Virus record (IMG/VR): IMGVR_UViG_3300032770_001050
Location: 1-39,870 of that record
Reading direction: 5' to 3' (one strand)
Length of the DNA: 39,870 nucleotides
Source of the DNA: a virus
Positions within the stretch are counted from its first letter, which is position 1, and every line of letters starts with the position of its first letter. Shown here in pieces: positions 3,183 through 37,321 of the stretch. The notes under the pieces were generated by a model. That model worked only from the letters and a program-made list of their open reading frames with translations, was not told the DNA's origin and searched no databases. The position numbers were made by a program, and so were the translations under genes.

Positions 3183-3986
3183 CTAAGTCGCGGGTGCGCT
3201 TCGGCCGCGGGTTCGCAACGCGATGACGACGCCCACAAAGATCGAAGCGGCACTTGCCAGTTGTGCATTTGTCAGGCCTAGCACCGAGCGCGGGTTGATG
3301 CGAATGAACTCGACCAAAAACCGTGCGGCGCCCGTGAGAATCAAGTATGCCGCGAATACGGTTCCGGTTGGCAGAGACCTTCGCGACGACTCCATCTCTG
3401 AGGACTGCGTCCTGAGTTGCCCCTTGCCCATGCGCCAGAGGAACCACGCGATCAGGCAGGCTCCGAGGAATTCATAGAGGGGTGTGGGATGGACGCGCTG
3501 GGTGGTGGGCACGACTCCGTTCGGAAAGCTCATGCCCCAGGGCAGGGAGGTGGGAATGCCATAGTCGCCGTCCCCAGCCAGCAGGCACCCGATACGGCCG
3601 ACGCCGTAGCCCAGAGCTGCGGCCGGCGAGCCTGCGTCGAGCATCTCCAGGAGGGGAATGTCATTTCGCCAGGCAAGCCAGACGAAAACAGCAACTCCGG
3701 CGATGAGCCCGCCAAACCAGGCGAACCCATATTGACTGAAGATTTCGGCAAAAGGGTGAGCGAGCAGGTCCTGGGGGCTCTGGAGAACGTGATAGAGCTT
3801 CGCTCCGATAATTCCGGCGAGGCTTGGGACGGCGATGAACGTTTCAGCGAGCCCTGACTTCTTGCCCGCGATGCCTCGACGCGCGAGGTCTGCGCGCAAG
3901 ACGTAGAAAGCCGCGACCATCGCGCTCGCGACCATGAGCCCGAAGGTCGGAATCGTGAAACGCCAAACGTGAAGGAAGGGAATCAC
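3183..3986 (-). CDS. lgt: Prolipoprotein diacylglyceryl transferase
   Basis: This 267-residue polytopic inner-membrane protein should transfer diacylglycerol from phosphatidylglycerol to the lipobox Cys of prolipoproteins, the first step of lipoprotein maturation. Typical family features are the N-terminal motif IPTFGLMVA, WFGGLIAG at 90-97, the signature GYGVGRIGC at 126-134 (R131 aligns with essential Arg143 of the E. coli enzyme), the VHPTPLYE motif at 165-172 and FLVEFIR with R229 (E. coli Arg239). Two positions deviate from E. coli: His103 is replaced by F91 and Asn146 by C134. The start is GTG at 3986. No clear ribosome binding site precedes it, and a possible -10 (TATACT on the minus strand, 3995-4000) lies so close that the mRNA could be leaderless. 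The gene is divergent from the exported protein gene at 4115. Confidence 0.88.
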   Translation of the reverse strand: MIPFLHVWRFTIPTFGLMVASAMVAAFYVLRADLARRGIAGKKSGLAETFIAVPSLAGIIGAKLYHVLQSPQDLLAHPFAEIFSQYGFAWFGGLIAGVAVFVWLAWRNDIPLLEMLDAGSPAAALGYGVGRIGCLLAGDGDYGIPTSLPWGMSFPNGVVPTTQRVHPTPLYEFLGACLIAWFLWRMGKGQLRTQSSEMESSRRSLPTGTVFAAYLILTGAARFLVEFIRINPRSVLGLTNAQLASAASIFVGVVIALRTRGRSAPAT

Positions 3987-7631: not shown

Positions 7632-9200
7632 GTGGCAACGACAGTCACTTCTGGCGTCGAACGCTGGGCTGCGGACGCACAGTCCGGAGAAGAGCCGCGA
7701 GGCAATTCCGAGAGGGATATCCGGATATTCCTCGGGTACGAACCCTTTCCCCGGCAGAATCTTTTTCATGGTTCATCGGCAAAGTACCGGCTGTTCGGCG
7801 GCGCTGCCGGGCCGGGGAAGTCGAAGGCGCTGCTGATGGAGGCGATCCTTCAGGCGGACGCACACGCGGGCGCGAATACGCTGGTACTTCGCCGAACCTT
7901 CCCGGAGCTCGAGCAATCGCTTCTTCTCTACTTTCGGCGCGACGTTCCGCGGGAACTGTACAAGTCGTTTCATGAGTCGAAGCACCTGGTCACGTTGTGG
8001 AACGGTTCGACGATACGGTTCGGGTACTGCCAGGCGGAGTCGGACGTCTATCAGTATCAGGGAGCGGAATTTCTCTTCATCGGCATCGATGAGTTGACGC
8101 TGTTCACGCTGCGGCAGTGGCAGTTCCTGACAAGCCGCAACCGCTGCCCGATTCCCGGCACGTACCCCTGCATGGCGGGAGCGACGAACCCAGGAAACAT
8201 CGGACACGCGTGGGTGAAGTCGCTATGGATCGACAAGAAGCCCGCCAGCGGAATGGAACAACCGGATGAGTACGACGCGGCCGATTACGATTTTATTCCA
8301 GCCCGTGTGACCGACAACCCGATCTATGCGAGCGACGAGAATTACGTCAAGACGCTGCGGGCTCTTCCGTCGCATCTGCGCCGCGCCTTCCTGGATGGCG
8401 ATTGGGAAGTGTTTGCTGGGCAGTATTTCGACAAATTCGACGCGGCATCCCACGTTCTCAGGCCCGAAACCATCGACTGGCGGCCCTGGTGGCCGCGATG
8501 GATCTCGGTCGACTGGGGGTTCGAGCACCCCGCGGCCACCTACTGGCACGCGGTAGCCCCTACAGGGGCGGTTGGTTCGGCCGGATCTGATGAGAGCCCG
8601 CGGCGCGTGATCACGTACCGCGAGTTCGTCACGCGGCGAACGGCTCCGCGCGAACTTGCGCGCGAAATCATCGCGCGCAGTGTTTCGTCAGCCGGCGGGC
8701 CTGCGGAGCGCGAGAAAATCGATGCTGTGTATCTTTCGCCGGACGCGTTCGCGCGGCGGACGGACGAAGCATCGATCGCGGAACAGATGGGCGATGTCTT
8801 CGCGGAGGCAGGTTTTCCGCGACCGATTCCGGCGGATGATGACCGGGTGGGCGGCTGGATGCTGATGTACCAAATGCTGGACGCAAACGAGTGGCTGCTG
8901 ACGGAGAACTGTATCGAACTGATTCGGACGCTGCCGACGTTGATCCGGGATGTAGCCCGCATTGAAGACGTCGAGAAGATGGACGGCGATGATCCGGCCG
9001 ACGCGGCGCGGTACGGGCTGAAGTCCCGCTACGGGGTTCGGCGCAGCTCACACCAGAATGCGCCGCTCGAGCAACGACTAGCCGAGCGGGTGACGTCGGC
9101 AGACCCGACTGTACGGGCCATCCAGGCACGCAAAGCACAGATCGAGGAGTCCCGTCGCGGGCAACCGGTCTCGTTCCGGCGGCACCGTCCTCGCGGGTGA
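7632..9200 (+). CDS. Phage terminase large subunit (ATPase-nuclease)
   Basis: This 522-residue packaging motor should cut concatemeric DNA and pump it through the portal. The ATPase domain shows Walker A GGAAGPGKSK (56-65, catalytic Lys K63), Walker B FLFIGIDE (D153, E154) and the coupling motif GATNPG (183-188). The transition AFLDGDWEVFAGQYF is typical of the family. The nuclease domain begins with ISVDWGFEHP (catalytic Asp D294) and has a second acidic site in YLSPDAF. Length and motif spacing are normal for a full-length TerL. The start is GTG at 7632 with a G-rich leader. The next gene begins 36 bp downstream on the same transcript. The call is secure; the exact packaging type (headful or cos) is not deducible. 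Confidence 0.95.
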   Translation: MATTVTSGVERWAADAQSGEEPRGNSERDIRIFLGYEPFPRQNLFHGSSAKYRLFGGAAGPGKSKALLMEAILQADAHAGANTLVLRRTFPELEQSLLLYFRRDVPRELYKSFHESKHLVTLWNGSTIRFGYCQAESDVYQYQGAEFLFIGIDELTLFTLRQWQFLTSRNRCPIPGTYPCMAGATNPGNIGHAWVKSLWIDKKPASGMEQPDEYDAADYDFIPARVTDNPIYASDENYVKTLRALPSHLRRAFLDGDWEVFAGQYFDKFDAASHVLRPETIDWRPWWPRWISVDWGFEHPAATYWHAVAPTGAVGSAGSDESPRRVITYREFVTRRTAPRELAREIIARSVSSAGGPAEREKIDAVYLSPDAFARRTDEASIAEQMGDVFAEAGFPRPIPADDDRVGGWMLMYQMLDANEWLLTENCIELIRTLPTLIRDVARIEDVEKMDGDDPADAARYGLKSRYGVRRSSHQNAPLEQRLAERVTSADPTVRAIQARKAQIEESRRGQPVSFRRHRPRG

Positions 9201-11090: not shown

Positions 11091-11195
11091 CTCGTAGTTT
11101 CCGAAACAAAACTTAAACACCCTTCGATCTCGGTCTTGCGGCCTGGTCTCTTTGTGTCTCCTTCCTCGCCGGCACGACCGTTCAGAGAGGCTCGC

Positions 11196-13652
11196 ATGTC
11201 CACAGACAAAAACTATGCCGCAGCCAATCCGGCGGTTGTGCCGGTCGAAGGGCCAGAGCGACTGGGGAGTGAGGTTCAGTCTACTGGGGGCGCAGCGGGG
11301 GATCGTCGAATTTCGCCCGCGGGTGATTCGCGCGTTTCGCCTGCTCGCCCCAACCCCTCGCTGGATTCCACGACCGACAGCCAAAACGGTTTGAACAACG
11401 AACAGCTTCCGGAGAGGCTGCAAGAAGCGCTGCGGCGCCTCGTGCTTCAGTATTCGACGGAGTCGGAGGCGACGCGGCGGCAGGAAATCCGGCGAATCAA
11501 GCAGGCGCATCAATTTTGGCGCGGGCTCCAGTATCTCTGGTGGAGCGAGCGAGATCAGAACTGGCATCTCCCGTTCGAGCAGAAGTTGATGGACAACTCA
11601 TCGCTCGAGGACCTGCCGCGCTACGAGTTCGTCACGAATATTTATCAGGCGTTCGGGCTCTCGCTCATTTCCGTTCTTTCGCAGGACGTGCCGCGAGTGC
11701 GCTTCTTTCCGGCATCGGCCCAGGCGGAAGAGGACATCGCTGCGGCCAAGGCGGCGACGGAGGTTGCCGGGCTGGTCGAGCGAAACAATCGAGTGGGAAA
11801 CCTGATCGTCGAGGAAGCGTTCAATCTGTGGACGGACGGAAAGGTCGGCGCATACGTTCGCTACGTCGTGGACGGGCAGCGGTTCGGATTTCATCCGGAG
11901 ACTGAGGTCGGCGTCAGGGAAGTCAAGGTTGGAAGCGATGCGTATGTGTGCCCCGAATGCGGGGCGCAGACGGAACCATCTGCTGCGCCGGCGGAGTCGT
12001 CCGGCAATTCAGTTGGGAAGCAGAGCGGCCCGACAGGCTCGGACGCTATTTCGCAGAACGCAAAGCGGGATAACCTGTCTTGTTCACAATGTGGGGCGCT
12101 GCTGACAGAGGAGGACTTTGTCGCAGCTGAGACGATCACCGTTCCGGCGGCGCAGACCAGGTTGCGAGTTGCGAACGGCCAGGAAGTAATCACGATGGTC
12201 GGAGGACTGGAGCTCAAGACTCCCCCGTGGGCCAACGAGATGCACGAATACCCGTACCTTCAGTGGAATATGGAGGTGCATCAGGCACGTCTTCGCGCCG
12301 CGTATCCCCACGCGGCCGACAAGATCGGCGCTCCGGTAGCCACGGGAGCCCAAGAATACGAACGGTTGGCGCGGCTGGCGCAATCGCAGGGCGGTCCGCT
12401 GACGGAAGGCGGGGACTTCAACATCAACTTGATCACGTTTCAGCGCACGTGGCTGCGGCCGTGGGCGTTCTTTGCGCTCGAAGACAAGTCGCTTCGCGAT
12501 GAGCTGCTCGCGCTGTTTCCGGACGGCGCCTATGTGGCGTTTGCTGGAGACGCCTATTGCGAGTCGCGCAACGAAAACATGGATGATCATTGGCGCGTGC
12601 TCCACGCTCTACCGGGCGACGGTTCAAGCGGGCGCCCAGCACTCGGCGACGCGCTGATCAGCGTGCAAGAACGCTTCAACACGCTTTCGAATCTGCAGAT
12701 GGAAACGTACGAGTACGGGATCCCGCCGATCTACGCGGACAGCGAGGTCCTCGATTTCGACTCGCTACAGAATCAAACGGCGGAGCCGGGCGCGCATTAC
12801 CCCGCGCGGGCAAAACCGGGGCAATCACTGGCGTCCGGGTTCTTCCAGCCCGAGCCCGCGGAGGTGCCTCCCGATCTCGCGCAGCACGCCGCGGCGTTGA
12901 TGGGCCCCGTCGCACAATTCCTCACGGGCGCGTTTCCCGCGCTGTTCGGGGGCGCGATGGCCAACAACGATACGGCTGCAGGCTATGCGATGGCCCGCGA
13001 CCAGGCGATGGGTCGCATCGGGCTCGTGTGGCGGCGAATGAAGTTCTTTCATTCGGACCTGATGCTGCTGGCCGTCGACTGCTTCCGTAAGAACCGCCCG
13101 CAGGATGTGGAAGTGACGTTGCTTGGAGCCGGATCGGCGTTCGAGTCGAAATGGATTCGGCTAGCGGACTTGAAGGGAAACCTCTTCAGCTATCCGGAAA
13201 CGGACGAGCAGTATCCGACCCTGTGGTCACAGCAACGAGCGGTGCTGCTGCAACTGATGACGAATCCAGATCCTCAAATCCAGTCGGTGCTGGCGCATCC
13301 GGAAAACATGGCGCTGGTCAAGAGGCTCGTCGGGCTCGAGGAACTGGTGATTCCCAACGAGGAGTCGCGAACGAAACAGTATCGCGAGATCGCGCAACTT
13401 GTGGGGGAATCGCCGATCGTGAAGCGTCACGATGCGAGCGGCGTGGAGGTGATGCTGCCAACTATTTTGCCGGATGAGTTCGCGGATAACCACGCTGTGG
13501 AGCTAGATATTTGCCTGCGGTGGTTTTCGTCGGACGCCGGGCAAGTGGCGAAGATCGAGGCGCCGGCAGGATACGCGAACGTCCGCGCGCACGCGCTATT
13601 TCACCGCGACTACCTGCGCAAACAGCAAGCAGGCCAAGCCTCGTCGGCCTAG
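11196..13652 (+). CDS. Phage portal protein with an inserted zinc-ribbon-like segment
   Basis: This 818-residue protein is the size of P22-type portals, the dodecameric DNA gate at one capsid vertex. Support comes from its place after TerL and before scaffold and MCP, from the N-terminal helical region (RQEIRRIKQAHQFWRGLQY), and from the long helix MARDQAMGRIGLVWRRMKFF with the following strand-rich wing. Between about 250 and 300 lies an insertion with Cys pairs C252/C255 (CPEC) and C296/C299 (CSQC), a likely Zn site. ATG 11196 follows GAGAGG at proper distance; the upstream TTG at 11136 has none. No frameshift is seen. The family call is by context and style, since portals diverge strongly. 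Confidence 0.82.
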   Translation: MSTDKNYAAANPAVVPVEGPERLGSEVQSTGGAAGDRRISPAGDSRVSPARPNPSLDSTTDSQNGLNNEQLPERLQEALRRLVLQYSTESEATRRQEIRRIKQAHQFWRGLQYLWWSERDQNWHLPFEQKLMDNSSLEDLPRYEFVTNIYQAFGLSLISVLSQDVPRVRFFPASAQAEEDIAAAKAATEVAGLVERNNRVGNLIVEEAFNLWTDGKVGAYVRYVVDGQRFGFHPETEVGVREVKVGSDAYVCPECGAQTEPSAAPAESSGNSVGKQSGPTGSDAISQNAKRDNLSCSQCGALLTEEDFVAAETITVPAAQTRLRVANGQEVITMVGGLELKTPPWANEMHEYPYLQWNMEVHQARLRAAYPHAADKIGAPVATGAQEYERLARLAQSQGGPLTEGGDFNINLITFQRTWLRPWAFFALEDKSLRDELLALFPDGAYVAFAGDAYCESRNENMDDHWRVLHALPGDGSSGRPALGDALISVQERFNTLSNLQMETYEYGIPPIYADSEVLDFDSLQNQTAEPGAHYPARAKPGQSLASGFFQPEPAEVPPDLAQHAAALMGPVAQFLTGAFPALFGGAMANNDTAAGYAMARDQAMGRIGLVWRRMKFFHSDLMLLAVDCFRKNRPQDVEVTLLGAGSAFESKWIRLADLKGNLFSYPETDEQYPTLWSQQRAVLLQLMTNPDPQIQSVLAHPENMALVKRLVGLEELVIPNEESRTKQYREIAQLVGESPIVKRHDASGVEVMLPTILPDEFADNHAVELDICLRWFSSDAGQVAKIEAPAGYANVRAHALFHRDYLRKQQAGQASSA

Positions 13653-13689: not shown

Positions 13690-14568
13690 TCAGAATGATC
13701 GTTCGATGGCGCTGCCTTGAACGCGCGTGCCGTAGACGCTCTTCTGCGTTTTCGGCGGAGCCACGAGCCTCACGACATGGAGGAGCCGTTCCGGTTTGAA
13801 CGGCTTCGCCATGCAGACGACCGCGCCGAGCTGATGGCTTGCTGAATAGTCCGCCGGCTGGGCCGAGCGGGTCATCAGGATTACCGGCACGTGTTGTAGT
13901 CGCTCGTTGCGCTTGATAATCAGGCACAGATCGTGGCCGCTCATGTCGTCGCCTTCCACTTCGGCGAGGAAGACCGACGGGATCGTTGTCTTCAGGACTT
14001 CGAGAGCGGCGCGGGCAGTGGGCACGACGATCACGTTGTACCCATCCTGCTGAAGGAGGTTACGCATCGTATCGGCCGCACGCTGATCCGATTCAACTGC
14101 GAGCACGGTAGTCGCCTGCTTTTCCCTAGCCGACGAATCCTCGGCCCCTGCCATCGAGGGGTCTGACGCTGCTTCTTTGGCTACGCTTTTGGCGGCTTGA
14201 AACTGGACGGCGACGGCGAGTAAACCAGCACCATAGTCGCTTGCACGGACGACTTCGGCATTCTGTGGCTGATTCAATGCCGAAGCGGCAGGCGAATAGG
14301 GGAAGGTCACCTGGAGGAGCTGGCCCTTCGAATAATTGGTGCGTTTCGCGATAAAGAGCAGGCCATCGCGCGAAACGTCGATGCTGGAGCACACTTCTTC
14401 AAAGGATTCGGCCACGCTCTCCACGCGAACGTGAACTTGTGCTGAGATTTTGGCGCGCTTGCGGCGGCGGCGTTCCACTCCATCGGGGCCGGAGCGGCGG
14501 GACGTAGATGCAATCGTAGACGTACTCACTTCCGCTTCTGCGGAAGCTACTGTTGTCGTCGTGCTCAT
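13690..14568 (-). CDS. PilZ - degenerate receiver fusion protein, antisense in the capsid block
   Basis: The 292-residue protein has a PilZ domain at about 32-125 with the c-di-GMP-binding elements RRRRKR (33-38) and DVSRDG (64-69). After a linker comes a CheY-like domain at about 152-270. In the receiver the phospho-acceptor position holds Glu (E203 in FLAEVEGDDMSG) instead of Asp, while the pocket residues E159/D161, the switch Thr T233 and the invariant Lys K255 (MAKPFKP) remain. It may therefore act as a locked or phosphorylation-independent receiver whose output is tuned by c-di-GMP. It is typical of host regulators, lies opposite to all virion genes, and ends 37 bp from the portal stop codon. 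The ribosome binding site GAGG lies 6 bp before the ATG. Confidence 0.85.
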   Translation of the reverse strand: MSTTTTVASAEAEVSTSTIASTSRRSGPDGVERRRRKRAKISAQVHVRVESVAESFEEVCSSIDVSRDGLLFIAKRTNYSKGQLLQVTFPYSPAASALNQPQNAEVVRASDYGAGLLAVAVQFQAAKSVAKEAASDPSMAGAEDSSAREKQATTVLAVESDQRAADTMRNLLQQDGYNVIVVPTARAALEVLKTTIPSVFLAEVEGDDMSGHDLCLIIKRNERLQHVPVILMTRSAQPADYSASHQLGAVVCMAKPFKPERLLHVVRLVAPPKTQKSVYGTRVQGSAIERSF

Positions 14569-17069: not shown

Positions 17070-18344
17070 ATGGCACAGATGCAGAACGCACAGTCGGTCG
17101 CGTTACAGCTTGAAAAGGTTCGCGACAAGCTTCCTCTTTTGTACGAGCGCGACGACATCCTGCTGACAATGATCCAGCAGCGGGGGGATGTCGAGCGCGT
17201 CAGCTCGCGCAACATGCGCCTTCCCCTGCAGATCCGTCCGGGAGGCAAGGCCGGGCTCGCCAATATGGACGGCGGCGACCTGGGCCGCGGCTCCGGAACG
17301 ATTTACGACGTGGCGCAAGTCACGCCGGTGTTCTTCCGCCACGCGGTGGAGATCACGAAGCTGGTGGAGTATGCGAGCAACGCACCCGAAAAGGCCGTTG
17401 AAAACGCCGCCAAGCGTGAAGTGAAGAACGCGATGGCGCAGTTCCGCTCGTTCCTGGACAAGGTGATGCAGACCAACGGAAACGGCGTGCTCGGCACCAT
17501 CGGGTCCATCACGACGTCAGGGCTTCCCTCAGGAGTCGCCGCGCAGTTTACGATGGCGAAGCCGCCGGGGGCGCAGCTCTTCTACTTCAACCAGACCGTG
17601 CAGGTCTACGATTCCACGCTCACGACGAATCGCGGCTCCGCGAACGTCCTTCTTGTCGATCCCTTCAACTCGCTCATTCAGGTGGATGCGTTGCCGAGCG
17701 GCACGACCGCGAACGATGTTGTGGTCCACGACGGCCTCACGGGGGCGCAGCCCACATCGCTGTTCGGAATCCTCTATCACCAATCGAACGCCACAACCGG
17801 AACGTGGTTGAACCTGAACCGCGCAACCTATCCCGTCGAGCTTGCGACGCCAGCCGTCAACGGAAACAACTCCGCGCTGACGCCCGGCGCCGTGCGGCTC
17901 GCGATCAACAAAGTGCGAAAGTCGTTGGGCTCGAACCAGATCTCGAAACTGATCGCCTACACGTCGCTCGAACAGGAGCATCAGTGGGAGCAGTTGGGCG
18001 TCACGATTTCGCAGATCATCAAAGAGGGGGCGGGAGGCCGTGCCAGCGATCTCGACTTGCTGTTCACCGGCGACAAGTCCATGGCCGGTGTACCGATCAA
18101 GTCGAGCATCAACGCAAACTCGACCCGCGTCGATTTCCTCGACCTCTCTCACTGGGGACGAGCCGTGATGCAGGACATCGATTTCTATGATGTCGGCGGC
18201 CAGACTGTTTTCCCGATTTACGGAGCAAGTGGGGGCCTCGCGTCGGCCTACATCTTCTACTTCGTAACGGGCTTCCAGGTCTGGAACGATTCGCCTCGCT
18301 CCGGCGCTTACATCAACAACCTGGCGATTCCGTCAGGCTACTAG
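17070..18344 (+). CDS. Major capsid protein
   Basis: The 424-residue product follows a strong AAGGGAGA site and sits after the scaffold, as expected for the shell protein. The N-terminal helix (LEKVRDKLPLLYERDDILLT) and the strand-rich body (MRLPLQIRPGGKAG, VTPVFFRHAVEITKLVEYAS, KREVKNAMAQFRSFLDKVMQ) match HK97-fold capsid style. So does the C-terminal half (VRLAINKVRKSLGSNQISKL, AVMQDIDFYDVGGQTVFPIY). No N-terminal maturation protease domain is fused, so assembly presumably uses the separate scaffold. The gene is framed by a leader hairpin and a strong hairpin just after the stop codon. The exact lineage cannot be fixed without a profile search. Confidence 0.85.
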   Translation: MAQMQNAQSVALQLEKVRDKLPLLYERDDILLTMIQQRGDVERVSSRNMRLPLQIRPGGKAGLANMDGGDLGRGSGTIYDVAQVTPVFFRHAVEITKLVEYASNAPEKAVENAAKREVKNAMAQFRSFLDKVMQTNGNGVLGTIGSITTSGLPSGVAAQFTMAKPPGAQLFYFNQTVQVYDSTLTTNRGSANVLLVDPFNSLIQVDALPSGTTANDVVVHDGLTGAQPTSLFGILYHQSNATTGTWLNLNRATYPVELATPAVNGNNSALTPGAVRLAINKVRKSLGSNQISKLIAYTSLEQEHQWEQLGVTISQIIKEGAGGRASDLDLLFTGDKSMAGVPIKSSINANSTRVDFLDLSHWGRAVMQDIDFYDVGGQTVFPIYGASGGLASAYIFYFVTGFQVWNDSPRSGAYINNLAIPSGY

Positions 18345-19828: not shown

Positions 19829-20000
19829 CGCGTCCATTCCGTGGCGAGCGACAACCGAGCTCGATCCTCGCGGCTCTAAGACTGATGGAACAGCCCGCGG
19901 GCGTTGTACGATGCGAAAGGCTCAGGTCTTTGGTGTCTAGCGCGGTCAAGCGATGCCAGCGGCCGAATTCGGTTGTCGAGAGTGTCGAAGAGGAAGAACG

Positions 20001-23000
20001 ATGAAGAACGTCGCCATGAAATGGTTCTTGGTGCGAACGCTATGCCTTGTGGCGCTCGGCGCTGCGATCGTAGTGGAAGTGCCGACCGTGTGGGCGCAGG
20101 GATCCCGCAAAGACGACATTGTCCTCAGCAGCTCAGGGCATCCGATACCCGGAGCGATGGTCAGAGTCTGTCAGGCAGGCGCGACGGGAACACCATGCTC
20201 TCCGCTCGCAACCGTATATACCGACGCCACGTTGACGGCCGCGGCGGCGAATCCGTTCCAAAGCGACGGCATCGGGAACTACCACTTCTACGCGCCAGCG
20301 GGCCGTTACGTGATTCAAATTTCAGGGCCTGGCATCACGGGAACAAGGGTGTATCCGGACGTGATTCTCGCGCCGGACGTCTCTTCGTCGGGGTCAGGCA
20401 ACGACATTTCGGCATTCGGCCTCACGCTCGGCGGGAATCTAAGCGTCGCGGGGAACGCGACGATCAACGGGACGCTAACAACGGCGAACTTCAATCCGGG
20501 TGTATTCACTCCATCTTCATTGAGCGTGTCGGGTAGCGAGACGGTGGCTGGGCCGCGGCCTCGAACGGATGTCACGGGATTCGGGGCCAAGGGCGATGGC
20601 CTAACAGACGATACGGCCGCGATCCAGGCGGCGATCAATACCGTTTGTGCGGAGGACGTCAACCACAAGTCGACTCTTTTCTTTCCGCCCGGAAACTATA
20701 TCGTCTCGCAGCCGCAGTCGCCTTCGACCAGCCCCGTATTCACCGGCTTTTGCAGCGGCCTGGTTATGGAAGGCTCGGGATCCAACGCCAATCTCCAATT
20801 CGGCACCGCTCCCATGAGCCGGATCACGGTGCGTGCGGGGAGCAGTCCGAATGCTTCCGCAGTGTTTGCACCCGCAGGCGCGAATGGAATCGCTTTCAAG
20901 AACATCGAAATCGCGGGATACAACCAGGCGGTTTACCTGATCGGTGGCAATGGAGTCACCTTCAACAACACCTGCCTGACCAGCAGCGCCACTTCCATGG
21001 CGGACAATGTGCCGCTCAAGATGTCGCAGGTAATTCAAGTAACGTGGAATGGCGGCTGCATTCAGGCGCCCGATGGCAGCCACGACGACGTCTTGATCAT
21101 CGGCGCCGACACCGGCGGGACCGAGACCCAGCCGGCCGGCCTGATTTTCTTCAACGGCAGCGGCGGAAACTTCTGGATTGGCGACGGCGTGCATTACGAC
21201 CAGCGCGTGAACACCTGCTGCTCCGGGCCCGGAAATTTCCACTTCTGGAACATCCTCGTCGAGGATGCCACAGCGCCGATCTTTCGCGTGACGAATTCAA
21301 CGGGCAATCCAGGCAACCAGGCGATGCCGGGAATGCACGAGCTGGATTTCCAGAACTTCGAGGCGTCCGACGGCTCTCCAAACGTTCCGATGGTGAATTT
21401 CAACTCCAGCGGCTCACTCTTGTCGGGCGTTCAGATCAAGAACTTCAACGGTGGCGGCGGAGGATATGCCATCGAGATGCAGGCGGGCACTTTGCAAAAC
21501 TGCAGCGTGGCGGGCGGCGCAGTGCGCGTCCTGGATGGGAGCGGGAATCCTGCGGGCGATTGCATTCAACAGAACAACTCGGGATTGGATTTCATCGCGA
21601 ATACGGGAAACACGGACCGCCTGCGAGCGGATATCAGCGCTGCGAACGATGGAACCGCGATCCGAGCGACAGCGGCCGGCAATCCGTTCGCGTCGCTCGC
21701 CGTCGATCCGGCGCAAGGAGTTCTCTTCAGCGACGGCACCAGCTACGGATACAACGCGCAGGTCTACCAATCGACGAAAGAGGCCCTCGACATCGGGTTC
21801 GCGAGCACGCTGCCGCCGACCGGTGTGACCGGTACGGCGACGACGGGCGGCACCCTCGCGGCGGGAACCTACTACTATTTCGTACGCAGCACCACAAGCT
21901 CGGCGTGTTCGACCACTATGTCGGCGCCATCCGTTATTTCGAACGGCGTTGCACTGAGCGGATCGAATAATGCGGTGAGCCTGACGTGGACGGCTCCGCC
22001 CGCAGGGGCAGCGTCCGCAGCCGGGTACTGCATCTTCCGCTCGACGCAACCGACGAACTACAGCAACCAGGCGCAGTACCCGTCGGTTTTTGTTTCCGGC
22101 GCTTCGACGACGAGTTATACGGATCTCGGCACTGGGTTCGGTTGCTGCAACCTTTACGCGCCCTATAACGTGATGCAGTCCGCGCACCGGTTCACTCCGA
22201 CGTCGCTCGGCGTAAACACAACGAATCCCCAATTCAATCTGGATGTAAACGGCACGGCGGCCGTGAATTCGCTGAACGGCGTCGCAAAAGCGGAGCGGTT
22301 CACCGGTTCGGATGCAGTCGCCAAGATCAACGCCTGCTTAACAGCGGCTGCGAGCACCTCTGGACTGTGCGATGCCCGCGGTCTGGCCGGGACATTCACA
22401 GCGTCCTCGCACATATCGGTTCCGGCAGGGACAACATTGCTGTGGGGCCCGGCGCAGCTTACGGTGAATGACACTACAACGAAGGACGCAATCGAGCTGA
22501 TGGGCGACGGGGCCTCAGTAATTGGATATCAGGAGACGGGGCAGGGAACTGTGCCGCGACCCGATACTTCGGGTTACATCGCATGCGGAATCGCAGGTTG
22601 CACGACGGTCGACAACCCGAACTCGGCTACGCGCAACGTCGACTGGATCCACATTCACGGGATGTACCTCCTCGCGAACGGTGCAAGCTCGACTGTGCTG
22701 AATCTGACGAGCGTGGGACACGCGGACATCGAAAACAACCGATTCATCCTCGGAAGCGGCGGCGGGTCGTATGGAATTTACGGAAACACGTCGACAGGCA
22801 ATCAGGATTCGACCAACTCTCTGATCAAGCACAACGAATTCGATCCGGAATCGCAGAACGACACCTGCGCCTATCTGGCCGGCGTCTTCAACTCGCTCGT
22901 CTTCGAGCAAAACTCGTGTTACCTGCCTGCCGCAAACACGGGAACACAGGGGTTCGTGCTGGCGAAGGACACAAACGGGAATTATCCGGACAACGACGAG

Positions 23001-24668
23001 TTCTACGGCAACGATTGCGAAGCGGCGACCACCTCGTTCGGCCAAGTGTGCTTCAACATCATGGGTGCGCAGAGCATCGTCATCGGGCCGAACAATCGCT
23101 GCGAGAATGTCTACAACTGCTTCGAGTTTCCCGCGGACGGCTCAGCCGTGGGCATTCACCTGCTGGACCCGTACATCTCGCTTTCGGCGAACACGGTGAT
23201 AAAGCCAAATGAGCCGGCGGCGGCGATGCTCGCGATCGACAACAACGGCCACAACTGGCAGCCCTCGATGCATTTCGGCATGAACGATCTTGCGGGAGCA
23301 AATGTTCTCGGGAACGCCGGATTTGAAGGCTGGCAGAATGCGACGACGCTCTTCTATTGGGGCGGCGTGAGCGGGACCAGCATTAACCAGGGTGGTAGCG
23401 GAATCTATGCGCAGGAAACGAGCGCAGGGGCAAATCCGGCGGCTGATTCCTACACGCAAGGAACTTACAACGTTCGCGTCGGCGACGGCGCCACCGCAGG
23501 TCTCGGTCTGAATTCCGCATGCATTCAGGTGGACTCGACGCTCGAATACACCTTGATGTTCCGCGTTGCATCCGGGTCCACATCCGATACTTTCAGGCCG
23601 GGATTCCGATTCTATTCGGATCCGAACTGCACAGAAGCAAACAAGATCACGAACGTCGCAACGAACGCCCGCGTTCTCTCACCGGCCAACTATGCAGGCG
23701 TTTCAACTCTGGCCGGCACCGGAGCGAACTGGCAGTCTACCAACGCCTCGCTGACCTACAACAATGGAATTACCTGCAACTGCAGCGTGACGGGGGCGGA
23801 CTGGCAGGTCGCGACCGCAAACGCCTGGACGGCCAGCCGCAATTTCGGGATCACGTTTCGGGTGCCGAACGCCTACAGCAATGCGAGCACGATTGCCCAC
23901 TCCATGCGCGCCTTTCTGCTGGAGAACACGGCTGCGGCGAACAACTACGTCTACTTTGACGATGTCGTTCTCGGGCAAGGCCCCGTGTCACCTGATTTGC
24001 GGGCCGCACCGCTGGCCGACAGCGGCAGTGGCGGGACTGTGAATGGCTACGCCAGCTACAACTTCAGCGGCAATGTAACGCTGCAAGCTAACACCGGTTT
24101 CGGCGGCACGCTCACCCACAACAACACAGCGAATCGCACGTATACCTTTCCAGACTCTTCGGGAACGGTCGCACTGCAGACGCCGCTTGCTTCGTGGGGA
24201 TTACAGCATTCGGGATCGGCTCAATCCTTTTCGTCGAACGCGGTGAAAGTCTGGGGAATCATCATTCCCTATGGTGTCAGCTTCAGCCACCTCGATTACA
24301 GCGTTTCGACGTTGGATTCCAACTCATCGGACAACTATGACGTTGGGTTGTACGGGCCGTGCGCGGTGAATACTGCAAGCTGCCCTCTCGTGGCACACAT
24401 TGGCGCGCAGAACCTGAGTTCGACGGGCTACAAGCAGACCAGCGTCAGTTCAGGAACGATTCAACCCGGCCTGTACTGGATCGCGATCACCGGCAACGCC
24501 ACGACCGCGCAAGTTGCCACGACGTCCGTGAGCGAATGGACCGCATGCCCGTCAACAAACTCGACCACTACATCGACCGGGGGCGCCCTCCCCTCAACAA
24601 TCGCCACGCCAAACTGCTCTGCTCCTCAGTGGACCGGAGGCGCCGTCGTTGGTATTGGTCTCGAGTGA
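20001..24668 (+). CDS. Giant beta-helix tailspike-like protein with signal peptide
   Basis: This is a 1555-residue multidomain protein. Residues 1-33 form a Sec signal peptide (WFLVRTLCLVALGAAIVVEV, then VWAQ). A small beta-sandwich follows (about 35-115, DDIVLSSSGHPIPGAMVRVC). Next is a pectate-lyase-3 type right-handed beta-helix (about 185-520, DVTGFGAKGDGLTDDTAAIQ), an FN3-like domain (about 610-716), a second beta-helix (about 766-1093) and a jelly-roll carbohydrate-binding-like module (about 1097-1333, VLGNAGFEGWQN). The C-terminal strand-rich region begins at about 1340. This fits glycan recognition or cleavage. The first 750 residues match the product of 33746-37321. ATG 20001 follows GAGGAAG; the upstream start at 19953 has no site. 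A signal peptide is unexpected for a cytoplasm-assembled spike, so a secreted host glycan enzyme is an alternative. Confidence 0.8.
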   Translation: MKNVAMKWFLVRTLCLVALGAAIVVEVPTVWAQGSRKDDIVLSSSGHPIPGAMVRVCQAGATGTPCSPLATVYTDATLTAAAANPFQSDGIGNYHFYAPAGRYVIQISGPGITGTRVYPDVILAPDVSSSGSGNDISAFGLTLGGNLSVAGNATINGTLTTANFNPGVFTPSSLSVSGSETVAGPRPRTDVTGFGAKGDGLTDDTAAIQAAINTVCAEDVNHKSTLFFPPGNYIVSQPQSPSTSPVFTGFCSGLVMEGSGSNANLQFGTAPMSRITVRAGSSPNASAVFAPAGANGIAFKNIEIAGYNQAVYLIGGNGVTFNNTCLTSSATSMADNVPLKMSQVIQVTWNGGCIQAPDGSHDDVLIIGADTGGTETQPAGLIFFNGSGGNFWIGDGVHYDQRVNTCCSGPGNFHFWNILVEDATAPIFRVTNSTGNPGNQAMPGMHELDFQNFEASDGSPNVPMVNFNSSGSLLSGVQIKNFNGGGGGYAIEMQAGTLQNCSVAGGAVRVLDGSGNPAGDCIQQNNSGLDFIANTGNTDRLRADISAANDGTAIRATAAGNPFASLAVDPAQGVLFSDGTSYGYNAQVYQSTKEALDIGFASTLPPTGVTGTATTGGTLAAGTYYYFVRSTTSSACSTTMSAPSVISNGVALSGSNNAVSLTWTAPPAGAASAAGYCIFRSTQPTNYSNQAQYPSVFVSGASTTSYTDLGTGFGCCNLYAPYNVMQSAHRFTPTSLGVNTTNPQFNLDVNGTAAVNSLNGVAKAERFTGSDAVAKINACLTAAASTSGLCDARGLAGTFTASSHISVPAGTTLLWGPAQLTVNDTTTKDAIELMGDGASVIGYQETGQGTVPRPDTSGYIACGIAGCTTVDNPNSATRNVDWIHIHGMYLLANGASSTVLNLTSVGHADIENNRFILGSGGGSYGIYGNTSTGNQDSTNSLIKHNEFDPESQNDTCAYLAGVFNSLVFEQNSCYLPAANTGTQGFVLAKDTNGNYPDNDEFYGNDCEAATTSFGQVCFNIMGAQSIVIGPNNRCENVYNCFEFPADGSAVGIHLLDPYISLSANTVIKPNEPAAAMLAIDNNGHNWQPSMHFGMNDLAGANVLGNAGFEGWQNATTLFYWGGVSGTSINQGGSGIYAQETSAGANPAADSYTQGTYNVRVGDGATAGLGLNSACIQVDSTLEYTLMFRVASGSTSDTFRPGFRFYSDPNCTEANKITNVATNARVLSPANYAGVSTLAGTGANWQSTNASLTYNNGITCNCSVTGADWQVATANAWTASRNFGITFRVPNAYSNASTIAHSMRAFLLENTAAANNYVYFDDVVLGQGPVSPDLRAAPLADSGSGGTVNGYASYNFSGNVTLQANTGFGGTLTHNNTANRTYTFPDSSGTVALQTPLASWGLQHSGSAQSFSSNAVKVWGIIIPYGVSFSHLDYSVSTLDSNSSDNYDVGLYGPCAVNTASCPLVAHIGAQNLSSTGYKQTSVSSGTIQPGLYWIAITGNATTAQVATTSVSEWTACPSTNSTTTSTGGALPSTIATPNCSAPQWTGGAVVGIGLE

Positions 24669-30508: not shown

Positions 30509-31516
30509 ATGCTGAATATTCCTCAAATTGAGGCGCTACGCCGCACGAATCCGCAGTTGTATGAGGCCCTCAAGCGGTTGTCCGAAGCTTCGCTCGGGCC
30601 GAACCAAGGCTGGAGCATCGACAACCAAATCACCGACGGTACGAACTATGCGCGCGTTACCGCCGGTGCGCTCACAGAAGGGAAGGTCGACCCATCCAAG
30701 TCGGGCGTACTGGCCACGGGCTCTGTGCCGCCGACATGGTCCGGAGCCTTCACGTACGGGTCCACAACATCGAGCATCACGTGGTCCTGGGCTGGACTAA
30801 CAATTTGCCGTGCTGACGGCACGCAAACGCCAATTCCGAACGGCTCGCTCGCGATTAGCGGTCTCTCGCCCGGCACGACCTACTACTTTTATCCGTTCTG
30901 GAACGAGAGCTCATCCGGTCTCGGGTGGGTAGCGGGCGGGGCAGGGAGCCCGGCGAATGCGCTCACGGCCAAGACAAATCCCGCGGCACAACAGCAGGCG
31001 TTGCAAGGGCGCATTCCACTCTCACAAGGGGCGATGATGGCGGCCACCACAACGAGCGGCACAGGTGGTGGATCAGGCGGCGGCAGCGGAAGCTGCCTGC
31101 GGAGGGGCACGTTGGTTCTGACGCGCGAGCGCGGCAGCGTTCCGATCGAGAGCTGCTGCGTCAGCGAGCATCTGCGTTGCCCGAACCCGGGCGGGGGAGA
31201 AGGATGGACGCGCATTGTACGGCTGCAGCTTCGCGAGGCCGACACTTTCATCCGCCTCCATTTTTCGAATGCCGAATCGCTGGACGTGACGCCCCACCAC
31301 ATCTTCACCCTGGCCGACGGCTCGCCGATGCGGGCCGAGCGGCTGTGCCTTTCGGACATTCTGATCAGCCGCTACGGCCATGTGACTCTGAAGCGGATCG
31401 AGAGCGTTCTCGAAGAGAGTCAAAAGGTGAGTATTACCTGCGAGCCGACGGCTCAGTTCTACGCGGGCCGATTCGCGGCGAGCATCCTGACGCACAACTA
31501 TACGTTCACTTCGTAA
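30509..31516 (+). CDS. Tail protein with C-terminal Hint (intein-like, BIL-type) domain
   Basis: This is a 335-residue protein. Residues 1-160 are a tail-type region: an N-terminal helix (IPQIEALRRTNPQLYEALKR) and an FN3-like fold ending GLSPGTTYYFYPFWN. A Gly/Ser linker (about 180-195) leads to a Hint domain from C196 to N330. It has the nucleophilic Cys at its first position (CLRRGTLVLT), block B with TPHH (261-264, T and H in the TxxH spacing), and a C-terminal FYAG...ILTHN with H329-N330 followed by YTFTS. Such domains self-cleave or splice. The residue after the Asn is Tyr, not Cys/Ser/Thr, as in bacterial intein-like domains. The GGTGAG site precedes ATG 30509. An autoprocessed tail fibre is the likely meaning; activity is inferred. 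Confidence 0.8.
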   Translation: MLNIPQIEALRRTNPQLYEALKRLSEASLGPNQGWSIDNQITDGTNYARVTAGALTEGKVDPSKSGVLATGSVPPTWSGAFTYGSTTSSITWSWAGLTICRADGTQTPIPNGSLAISGLSPGTTYYFYPFWNESSSGLGWVAGGAGSPANALTAKTNPAAQQQALQGRIPLSQGAMMAATTTSGTGGGSGGGSGSCLRRGTLVLTRERGSVPIESCCVSEHLRCPNPGGGEGWTRIVRLQLREADTFIRLHFSNAESLDVTPHHIFTLADGSPMRAERLCLSDILISRYGHVTLKRIESVLEESQKVSITCEPTAQFYAGRFAASILTHNYTFTS

Positions 31517-33303: not shown

Positions 33304-33735
33304 ATGACGCCTGAACTCGTATCGCTTGCTCACGCACTGGCCACTCAGAACCACCTGGATGGGGCCCTCGTCTGCGCGGTCGTGGAGCAGGAGTCTTCGT
33401 GGGATCCGCACGCGATGAGGTATGAGCCGTCATTTCGTTCGCGGTATGTGGCCCCGCTTCATTTGCCGCCGACGGAAGAAGTGGCGCGGTCAATTTCCTG
33501 GGGACTGATGCAGGTCATGGGACAAGTCGCGCGCGAACACGGATTCACCGGCAAATTCCTGAGCGCACTGTGCGAACCGGAAGCAGGTCTGATGATTGGT
33601 TGTGCCGTGCTTGCCGCCAAGCTCGGCCGCGTTTCGGGAGACGTAGCTGCCGGGCTCGCACTGTGGAACGGCGGCGCCAACCCTGAGTATGCCGGTCAGG
33701 TTCTCGGAAGAGTCGCTAAGTATCGCACCACGTAG
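33304..33735 (+). CDS. Lytic transglycosylase (SLT-type endolysin or virion peptidoglycan hydrolase)
   Basis: The 143-residue enzyme should cleave the MurNAc-GlcNAc glycan strand of peptidoglycan, forming 1,6-anhydro ends. The lysozyme-like SLT fold is shown by CAVVEQESSWDPHAM with the catalytic Glu (E30) before Ser-Ser-Trp, by SWGLMQVMGQVAREHGF and by ALWNGGANPEYAGQVLGRVAKY, the conserved N-G-G and Tyr-containing C-terminal motif. No signal peptide is present, so access to the cell wall needs a holin or delivery by the particle. The adjacent membrane gene fits either. It is compact, as are many phage endolysins. The domain call is secure; the biological use (lysis or entry) is not decided. 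Confidence 0.85.
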   Translation: MTPELVSLAHALATQNHLDGALVCAVVEQESSWDPHAMRYEPSFRSRYVAPLHLPPTEEVARSISWGLMQVMGQVAREHGFTGKFLSALCEPEAGLMIGCAVLAAKLGRVSGDVAAGLALWNGGANPEYAGQVLGRVAKYRTT

Positions 33736-33745
33736 CCGAGGGACA

Positions 33746-34426
33746 ATGCTCAAACCCGCCATATTGCTTGCGTGTCTGTGTGTCGTTACAGGATGCGCGT
33801 TCGGCCAGGGATCGCAGCGGCAATCTGTCGCGGTCTCGCTGCAGGGAACTCCCATTCCCGGCGCGAGCGTGTGGGCCTGCCAGAGCGGCTCGACGCCGAG
33901 TTACTCCACGACTCCGCCGTGCGCCCTCGCCAGCATCTACTCAGACCCATCGCTCGGCTCGCAGTATCTGATCGCACAGCCGCTGATTTCGGATGGCTTG
34001 GGAAATTTCACGTACTACGCGCCCGCGGGCACATACGTCGAGGTGATCACGGGATCGAATACGACCGGATACAGCTCGACGATCGTTTTGCCTTGTGCGC
34101 CAAACTCGACCGCGTCAGGATGTTCGGGCGGAGCAGGGAATCCGGCCGGCAGCGATACACAGCTTCAGATCAACAGTCACAGCCAATTCGGAGCTGTAAG
34201 CGGCCTCGCCGTCGACAGCAGCACCACTCCAACCGTTGTTACGATACCGTTCAGCGAAGCCGTCAAAGGACCGCGGCCCTGGGTGGACGCGACGGCATAC
34301 GGCGCGGACCCGACTGGTGCCACCGACTCCACGAGCGCCATCACCGGTGCCGCCGCGGCGGCTTGCAGCGCGGGTTCCACCCTTTATGTTCCGCCGGGCA
34401 CCTACAGTTTGACGCAACCTCAGTAG
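33746..34426 (+). pseudogene. Second tailspike-like gene, 5' part up to an in-frame amber codon
   Basis: From ATG 33746 this frame encodes 226 residues: a signal peptide with lipoprotein-like VTGC (MLKPAILLACLCVVTGC), the same small beta-sandwich as the tailspike at 20001 (QGTPIPGASVWACQS; SDGLGNFTYYAPAGTYVEV) and the start of the pectate-lyase-type beta-helix (VDATAYGADPTGATDSTSAI; LYVPPGTYSLTQPQ). It then meets TAG at 34424-34426. The same frame continues open for 965 codons (34427-37321). The paralogue at 20001 has TCG (Ser) at the aligned position, in SQPQSPSTSP versus TQPQ-stop-PSTSS. Hence one C-to-A change explains the stop. It is a nonsense mutation, an assembly error or an amber-suppressed codon. 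Confidence 0.75.
34424..34426 (+). other. In-frame amber codon interrupting the second tailspike
   Basis: TAG at codon 227 of the frame that starts at 33746 is the only stop codon before 37321. It is aligned to a TCG serine codon in the paralogous gene at 20720-20722. The following bases are CCT, not a known strong read-through context. Confidence 0.8.
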
Positions 34427-34441
34427 CCTTCCACGTCCAGC

Positions 34442-37321
34442 GTGATCCCAATCCCATGCGCGCACATTCACGTCACGGCGCTCGGCGATCAAGGCACGGC
34501 GCAGTCGGAGCAGCCGCCTCAGGCAAAACTCGTGGTCGCGAATGTCGGCTCGAATCCAAATGCCGCGCCGGTCTTCGGCTTCAAGTACCCGACAAATTCC
34601 GGTGGAATCACAATCGACAATTTGCAAGTATCTGGCTTCAACCAGGCCCTCTCGTTCTACGCGGAAACTGACGTCAGCCTGAATAACGTATGCGCTACGG
34701 CGCAATCGACGGGCCTGACCGATAACACTCCGCTTAAGGTCACGAATGTCACTTCATTCCGGATGACCGGCGGCTGTTTGAACAGCGGCACAGCGCTGTT
34801 GCCGATAGCCCTTTTCACTGGAGAAGCGTCCCTCGGATCGGAGCCTCCACTGGTGGGCTTTGTGGAGATGGAGCACGTGCGCGGCAGCGGCGGGAATTTT
34901 CAATACATCCAGCGCGTCAACACGTCCGGAGCGGGCCCCGGTACGTTTGTATTCAACGACGTCACTCCTTCCGGAAGCACGACAGACTTTCTCGCCATCA
35001 CGAACGCGACCGGGAACATGGGCCAGACCGCTATGCCGCAGTTCGGCCCGGTTTTTGTTCTGAACAGTTCGTTGCCCGGCGCGACGGGTTCGGGCGCAGT
35101 CATCAATTTCAATTCTTCTGGGTCCAAGCTGGTCGGCGTTCATATCTACGATTCCTTAGCGAGCGCGCAAACAACGCCGCTCGTAGCCGTTCGGATGACG
35201 GGCGGGTCGTTGCAGGATTGCGAGGTGCATGGGGCGGTTGGAAGTATCGTGGAGGATGGCGCCGGCAATGTGGTCGGGTCTTGCAATCTCGAGACTGCCG
35301 GCGGCACCGACTATCTGGCTGACGGCACAATTTCCTCGGCATCCCGGCTTCGCAGCGAGATCACAACCGGACTGAATCCAACACCGAACCTGCGGTTCTA
35401 CATCAGCCCCAATTCACGAGCTTCGTATGGTGTCGATGCGGGGCAGGGATTTCTGTTCAACGATGGAGCCACCAACGGGTTCAACGCGTCGCTGGCAGAA
35501 ACGGTGAAGGGAAGCGTCGACCTCCAATTCGCCAACCTACTGCCGCCGACGAACGTCACCGCGAGCGCGACGACTGGCGGTTCTCTTTCACCGGGCACCT
35601 ACTATCCCTTCGTCGCAACGGCCAGCAGCGGCAGCTGCGCGACTACGTCGGCTCCGAGCCTCCCCGGCTTGCCGGTAACGCTGAGCGGCTCCAACAACGC
35701 AATCACGGTGACGTGGACGCCCGCTCCGCCATCCGTCGCGACGATCAGCGGATACTGCGTGGCAATTGCTTCGAGCGCCGCGAACGCAGGTTCGGGATCG
35801 AGTTACGCCAGCGCGTTCGTGTCGGGATCGGGCACAACGAGTGCGACTCTGACTGCGGCAGCTGGTTCGATGCAATTTCCGATGGCGAACGCGATGAGCC
35901 CGTTGCATCGCTTCACTCCCACGGGACTGAATCTAGCTGGCGGCCTGAACTTCTTCTCGGACACAGGTGCTGCAAACGCATATGTCGTAACGACATCCCC
36001 TTCGCTGGCCGCGCTACCCTTAGGCGCGACGTTCACCTTTCAGGCAGCGCATGCGAATACAGGCGCGGCGACGCTCAACGTCGATGGCACTGGCGCAACG
36101 ACCATCAAGAAGAACGGAGGTACCGGCAGCAGCGTTGGTGCGGACTTGGCCGCCGCGGATATCGCGACGGGCCAACTGGTCACTGTCATGTTCGATGGGA
36201 CGAACTTCCAGATGCAAAGTACCCTGGGCAACTCATCAGGGGGAGGTGGCGGCGGGGGCGGGATGAACACAGCGGGGTCGAATGCGGCGTCCACAGCGGT
36301 GAGCGCGAGTTGGGTGCCGGGAACGATCAATAGCTACGACTTGGGGACGAACGCGCTGCCGTGGCGCAACGTATACATCGGGACCGTGGCGAACCATGCG
36401 GTGGAGTTGGACGCGAGCCTGCTGACAGGGAACCGGGATCAGAAATTCCCGGATGAGGCGGGCACGTTCATGATGAACACGGACGCGCTTGGGTGCGCGC
36501 AGATGCCGGCGCTGACGGGCGATGCCACAAACTCGGCCGGATCGTGCGCAACCACGGTGGGGAAGATTCAGGGGACGCCGGTATCGGCGACGCCGCCGGT
36601 GGCGAATCAGATCCTCGTGGACATCGCGGGGACTTGGACGCCGGAAAGCCCGCAGCAAGGCGAGGACGTGCAGACCGGAACGACGTACACGATTCCGAAT
36701 ACGGATGGCGGGTACGTGGTGACGCAGACGAACGCCGGATCGATCACGGACACGGTGCCGGACGGGACCGACAGCGGCTTCGGGCAAGGCTTCTTCTTCG
36801 TGATCTTCAACGGCAACGCGCCCAGCGGAAGCCAAATCACGGTGAACCGGGAGACGAGCGGGCAATTCAGCTTCAACGGCGCGCTGGTGAACACGTTCTA
36901 TGTGGCACCGCAGCAGCATGCCTATCTCTACTGCTACGACGGGACGAACTGGCGAGTGTTCCTGCAGGGAACCGGCGTGAGCGGAGTGCTCTTCTCGAAG
37001 GACTATGCAAGCCAATCGGGAAGCCTGGGCTCGGTGACGATGTACACGGCGCCGGCGAATGGCACGTATCGCTTCTCGACGCCGATCGCGTGCGATTCAG
37101 CGACGGCGACGACGGTGGTGGTGACGCTGGCGTATACGGACACTTCGAGCACGAGCCAAACGCTCGCGTCAGGCACGGTGACGTGCACGAGCTTGGGGAG
37201 CTCGAGCGTGGGAAGTTTCTCGACGATGATCCGCGTGAAGAGCGGATCGACGATCTCGTTCACCACGACGGCGGTGGGCTCGACGTACGACATCAGCCCG
37301 GTACTGGAGGGCGTGTGGTAG
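34442..37321 (+). CDS. Second tailspike-like gene, 3' part (beta-helix, FN3-like and C-terminal modules)
   Basis: This segment is in the same frame as the part before the amber codon and codes for 959 residues if begun at GTG 34442. That GTG has no ribosome binding site, so independent translation is doubtful. Domains, numbered from ATG 33746, are the remaining beta-helix (to about 580; GGITIDNLQVSGFNQALSFY) and an FN3-like module (about 601-708; ASATTGGSLSPGTYYPFVAT). Then come a strand-rich block (about 758-830; GATFTFQAAHANTGAATLNV), a poly-Gly linker (nt 36237-36264) and C-terminal fibre-tip modules ending SPVLEGVW. The first part matches the protein at 20001; the part after the linker does not. 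It would bind glycans if made as one protein. Confidence 0.75.
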   Translation: MIPIPCAHIHVTALGDQGTAQSEQPPQAKLVVANVGSNPNAAPVFGFKYPTNSGGITIDNLQVSGFNQALSFYAETDVSLNNVCATAQSTGLTDNTPLKVTNVTSFRMTGGCLNSGTALLPIALFTGEASLGSEPPLVGFVEMEHVRGSGGNFQYIQRVNTSGAGPGTFVFNDVTPSGSTTDFLAITNATGNMGQTAMPQFGPVFVLNSSLPGATGSGAVINFNSSGSKLVGVHIYDSLASAQTTPLVAVRMTGGSLQDCEVHGAVGSIVEDGAGNVVGSCNLETAGGTDYLADGTISSASRLRSEITTGLNPTPNLRFYISPNSRASYGVDAGQGFLFNDGATNGFNASLAETVKGSVDLQFANLLPPTNVTASATTGGSLSPGTYYPFVATASSGSCATTSAPSLPGLPVTLSGSNNAITVTWTPAPPSVATISGYCVAIASSAANAGSGSSYASAFVSGSGTTSATLTAAAGSMQFPMANAMSPLHRFTPTGLNLAGGLNFFSDTGAANAYVVTTSPSLAALPLGATFTFQAAHANTGAATLNVDGTGATTIKKNGGTGSSVGADLAAADIATGQLVTVMFDGTNFQMQSTLGNSSGGGGGGGGMNTAGSNAASTAVSASWVPGTINSYDLGTNALPWRNVYIGTVANHAVELDASLLTGNRDQKFPDEAGTFMMNTDALGCAQMPALTGDATNSAGSCATTVGKIQGTPVSATPPVANQILVDIAGTWTPESPQQGEDVQTGTTYTIPNTDGGYVVTQTNAGSITDTVPDGTDSGFGQGFFFVIFNGNAPSGSQITVNRETSGQFSFNGALVNTFYVAPQQHAYLYCYDGTNWRVFLQGTGVSGVLFSKDYASQSGSLGSVTMYTAPANGTYRFSTPIACDSATATTVVVTLAYTDTSSTSQTLASGTVTCTSLGSSSVGSFSTMIRVKSGSTISFTTTAVGSTYDISPVLEGVW

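Follow-up and report, generated by a model that had tools for sequence, protein, structure and literature searches.

What does a spike gene mean when it is open from end to end except for one amber codon, and is the break a property of the organism or of the record? The window that we analysed is a complete IMG/VR virus record, 39,870 bases long, which is a metagenome consensus and not an isolate. The gene in question, TS2, occupies the frame 33746-37321 and has an intact paralogue, TS1, in the same window (Table 1). Translation bore out the starting observation, made in a sequence-only reading, that this frame is open apart from a single TAG: its 1191 codons contain exactly one internal stop, at codon 227 (SLTQPQ-stop-PSTSSV; codon context CAG TAG CCT), and no second lesion. 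The ATG is preceded by a GAGG resembling a ribosome-binding site, and third-position GC is coding-like on either side of the stop (0.71 before, 0.70-0.81 after).

Table 1 Positions of the spike genes and of other genes of the virion cluster and its surroundings, in window coordinates.
Feature	Position	Strand	Remarks
lgt, host prolipoprotein diacylglyceryl transferase	3183..3986	-	flanks the cluster in several genomes
Terminase large subunit	7632..9200	+	
Portal-like protein	11136..13652	+	name from position and conservation; family searches gave nothing above cut-off
PilZ and response-regulator gene	13690..14568	-	between portal and capsid genes; kept there in many relatives
Major capsid protein	17070..18344	+	single copy, co-diversifying with host
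TS1, intact paralogue	20001..24668	+	ORF 19953-24668, likely start 20001; same position in relatives
NHL-repeat secreted protein	25495-27531	-	inside the virion cluster; relatives at about 37-46% identity
SLT transglycosylase, endolysin-like	33304..33735	+	immediately before TS2; conserved in relatives
TS2, 5' part	33746..34426	+	signal peptide, N-terminal domain, first β-helix turn; ends at the premature TAG
TS2, premature amber codon TAG	34424..34426	+	codon 227
TS2, in-frame continuation	34427..37321	+	remaining β-helix region (to about 35935) and C-terminal region; terminal TAG 37319
Spike-like or secreted accessory protein, 604 aa	37515..39329	+	after TS2

The sequence downstream of the stop is still recognizable as a spike. 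TS1 and TS2 are 36% identical over 754 amino acids (E about 1e-110) in an alignment that crosses the stop, and the homologous TS1 codon is TCG, within SQPQ-S-PSTSP, as the sequence-only reading had reported. The part of TS2 past the stop, when searched alone, matched relatives in viral contigs and Acidobacteriota genomes at 32-46% identity with E values down to 1e-103, and it keeps 29 of the 34 family-invariant columns. These downstream matches and retained columns lie far above chance and argue that the second half is a real β-helix protein. Thus both flanks are conserved as protein, as proposed, and homologous sequence continues past the stop in the relatives where unrelated sequence might have been found. 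The C-terminal region (residues 731-1191) gave short, weak matches only.

The position of the stop within the fold bears on what a truncated product could do. PF12708, the pectate-lyase-like β-helix family, was found in both TS1 and TS2; in TS2 it begins at residue 179, ahead of the stop at 227. Structure prediction for TS1 (742 residues, mean pLDDT 65, helix region mostly 70-90) gave a β-rich model that, together with PF12708 and the Foldseek matches, identifies a right-handed β-helix of the pectate-lyase type. In this model the counterpart of the stop codon directly follows the strand 200-204, within the opening turn of the helix, and the predicted helix goes on for some 300 residues beyond it; a truncated TS2 product would accordingly lack nearly all of the helix. 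Foldseek matched the predicted TS1 fold to the tailspikes of Sf6 (E 3e-5) and HK620 (E 1e-4) and to phage proteins of the pectate-lyase superfamily, while secreted bacterial epimerases, polygalacturonases and adhesins matched equally well. TS2 opens with a segment that, judged by eye, resembles a signal peptide (VTGCAFGQGSQ), and the TS1 orthologues, like TS1 itself at 20001-20100 of the window, have in common a hydrophobic stretch that precedes AQGSRKDD, with the Sec-type signal peptide ending before QGSRKDD. The predicted signal peptides of TS1 and TS2 argue for export. For a spike whose gene lies in a virion cluster, such Sec export would be unusual. The name tailspike fits the fold and the gene position but sits uneasily with a Sec-type signal peptide, which is unusual for a phage spike.

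We next asked what the site encodes elsewhere. Among about 30 aligned homologues, none of which has a stop there, it varies among T, S, L, G, A and V, and no spike match from the genome searches contained an internal stop. The homologues that could be placed are orthologues of TS1, in the slot after the capsid genes, and not of TS2. The site had been described as a serine position; this holds for TS1, but serine is not general among the homologues, so the ancestral TS2 codon need not have encoded serine. A single substitution separates the two states if the ancestral codon was TCG or TTG, each of which occurs in homologues and is one change from TAG. When any base was allowed at the TAG position, an exact search returned no near-identical contigs, and neither a second copy of the amber allele nor an intact form of TS2 was found. 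No TS2 orthologue emerged: the search gave relatives of the TS1 type and short C-terminal matches only, the TS2 N-terminus returned chiefly general pectate-lyase N-termini, and nucleotide and protein searches of phage records gave no match. Separately, TS1 homologues in three draft contigs (L005 at 13709-13724, L273/L166, and L264) carry frame changes; the one in L005 is a single change near the border between the helix region and the C-terminal domain. The breaks that L005, G036 and G309 show in their TS1 homologues were weighed as instances of the same event as the TS2 stop and rejected, because they are frame changes at other places in draft contigs.

The best explanation, and one we regard as rather probable, is a real and recent nonsense mutation that knocked out an accessory spike. 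TS2 would be a second β-helix spike copy placed after the endolysin, in which a single recent substitution would halt translation at codon 227. The product would comprise the signal peptide, the N-terminal domain and some two β-helix strands and would not form a working spike; the intact TS1 would retain the standard role, so that the loss of TS2 would be tolerated. We infer that the organism itself carries the amber codon and can do without TS2. A fraction of 2.9% of random substitutions in TS2 would yield a stop, and under neutral decay the age limit for the lesion is about 0.03 substitutions per site, dropping to about 0.01 with indels at 5% of the substitution rate. Since TS2 has no other lesion, the amber is either very young (under roughly 1-3% neutral divergence) or an error.

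An error is the strongest rival, although we hold it to be unlikely: the TAG would be a single-base mistake in the metagenome consensus, and TS2 would be intact in nature. The window is a single record and not an isolate, one change suffices from either of the codons present in relatives, and nothing else is wrong with TS2. Over all genes, about 0.1 nonsense errors would be expected if the consensus erred at 1e-4 per base; at 1e-5 or lower, however, the expectation falls to 0.01 or less, and every other gene in the 40 kb is unbroken. A six-frame scan for long frames joined through TAG found TS2 to be the sole interrupted gene in the window, with the remaining TAGs separating distinct genes or sitting in non-coding frames. 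We weighted real inactivation about twice as heavily as error, a weighting that is a judgement. Of the four origins that had been put forward for the stop, recent inactivation and sequencing error both remain; amber suppression is unlikely, and phase variation has no support.

Amber suppression would mean that a suppressor tRNA or a reassigned code lets translation pass the TAG and yield a regulated amount of full-length spike, and the fully open and conserved downstream frame would suit it. However, TAG terminates many genes here, including those for the capsid, the portal and TS2 itself; no relative has a stop in its spike gene; and no tRNA gene, including a suppressor with a CUA anticodon, was found in the window. 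At the same orthologous place, capsid genes end in TAG 23 times, TAA 27 times and TGA 15 times, and terminase genes in TAG 24, TAA 15 and TGA 39 times. This interchangeability indicates that TAG is a stop in this lineage, and its use as an ordinary terminator, together with the lack of a tRNA in the window, makes recoding or suppression very improbable. We hold in equally low regard the idea that the gene makes two products, a short secreted N-terminal domain and a C-terminal protein started at an in-frame GTG (34442), 15 bases past the stop: this GTG has no ribosome-binding site ahead of it, the break would lie within the first turn of the β-helix, away from any domain border, relatives show no split at the site, and the second protein would be without a signal peptide. 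Reversible silencing of an alternative receptor-binding protein by phase variation is the least credible reading, for although switching would fit a cluster with two different spikes, the change is a plain substitution in non-repetitive sequence with no slippage tract at the site, and a base substitution outside any repeat is no switch.

The preferred reading, inactivation of an accessory spike, draws on where TS2 lies and how it has evolved. In all six relatives that reach past the endolysin (L168, L175, L181, L183, L177 and L178), the slot after it holds not TS2 but a membrane gene, Rz-like in look and position. The 604-residue protein that follows TS2 gave only fragmentary matches, in 6 of 89 genomes of the family. 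In the spike tree, TS2 lies on a long branch grouped with another subgroup (support 0.98), and the TS1 of the window pairs with that of L084 and not with TS2. The tree and the 36% identity rule out that TS2 is a recent duplicate of this TS1. The best reading of these comparisons is that TS2 is an accessory, fast-evolving second spike gene; its long branch and lack of pairing with TS1 are what relaxed constraint on an accessory copy would produce, although the long branch can alternatively reflect adaptive change.

The stop had been described on the unstated premise that the record is an ordinary phage, and this premise is doubtful. The portal-like and capsid proteins matched dozens of relatives among viral contigs from soil and among Acidobacteriota MAGs, the gene order of the cluster is conserved among them, and in many MAGs the cluster sits inside long chromosomal contigs. 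Within one Acidobacteriota family, 44 of 89 genomes gave a capsid match, almost always once; multiple matches were mostly fragments of draft assemblies. The half of the family without a match reflects in part incomplete MAGs and perhaps loss. Capsid identities fall into tiers of 90-95, 82-86 and 71-74%. For 29 genomes, capsid and SecY trees shared 15 of 26 splits, compared to at most 3 in 1000 label shuffles, with three conflicts, all within shallow groups. The Mantel correlation was 0.81, and capsid divergence was as low as that of SecY (0.21 vs 0.24). On smaller genome sets, portal and terminase gave r of 0.81 and 0.76 against SecY. The agreement of the capsid tree with that of SecY, and a capsid evolving no faster than SecY, argue for vertical inheritance. 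In six loci an lgt gene is found upstream of the cluster, in five with the same orientation, which suggests a fixed chromosomal site in this clade. The genes scanned included none recognisable as an integrase, a repressor or a replication gene. The PilZ and response-regulator gene may possibly place the cluster under host control. In the protein encoded at 30509-31516, the C-terminal half resembles by eye an autoprocessing domain of the Hint/intein type (CLRRGTLV...LTHN; no Pfam match at E 0.05). The single copy number, the agreement of the trees and the chromosomal setting indicate that the cluster at 7632-33735 is probably a vertically inherited locus resembling a gene transfer agent (GTA) and not a roaming virus. 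Spike genes in a host-inherited cluster are better treated as genes of the host, evolving under host selection. The contig filed as a virus is thus probably chromosomal, with a virion cluster inherited by the host, a warning for use of the record. The stop codon of TS2 is in itself ordinary, and the vertically inherited cluster is the more notable of the two.

Compared to phages that reassign TAG (genetic code 15) or carry suppressor tRNAs, the window shares an in-frame TAG in a virion-type gene, but there is only one such codon and TAG is a normal stop elsewhere; neither many in-frame TAGs nor avoidance of TAG as a terminator, the marks of code 15, was seen. The predicted fold of TS1 groups with the β-helix tailspikes of Sf6 and HK620. 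Unlike these, TS1, its orthologues and TS2 open with a Sec-type signal peptide, and secreted bacterial proteins fit the TS1 fold equally well. The published criteria for GTAs are caudovirus-derived particle genes, endogenization, co-diversification with the host, packaging and transfer, and a GTA fills its particles chiefly with random host DNA and is unable to package the whole of its own locus (PMC9662315). The cluster contains caudovirus-type particle genes (the terminase, a capsid weakly matching phrog_14242 and a virion structural match to phrog_3287), its chromosomal contigs, neighbouring lgt and want of a recognised integrase speak for endogenization, and the SecY comparison points to co-diversification. 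It therefore resembles RcGTA, BaGTA and BhGTA, which are classed as viriforms (PMC9662315), in its single-copy caudovirus-type terminase and capsid co-diversifying with the host chromosome; it differs in that its capsid found no match by tblastn in 50,697 phage records. Known here from its genes alone, the cluster looks like a GTA and is not asserted to be one. The open-access literature searched, which was covered in part, yielded no described GTA of Acidobacteria. Tentatively, the locus could be an undescribed GTA-like viriform of Acidobacteriota with an internal PilZ/response-regulator gene, Sec-exported β-helix spikes and a lineage-specific TS2 silenced in this strain; if so, the amber allele would report how receptor specificity shifts in a domesticated particle. 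If the cluster makes particles, Acidobacteriota, which are major soil bacteria, would join the few groups with GTAs, and gene exchange among mostly uncultured soil bacteria could be tested directly. Tail fibre and spike genes of prophages and domesticated phage remnants are known with nonsense interruptions. TS2 is like them in having a single stop, with homology on both sides, in a long and otherwise undamaged gene of the receptor-binding type, and differs from them in having an intact paralogue about 9 kb upstream and in belonging to a cluster that appears to be vertically inherited.
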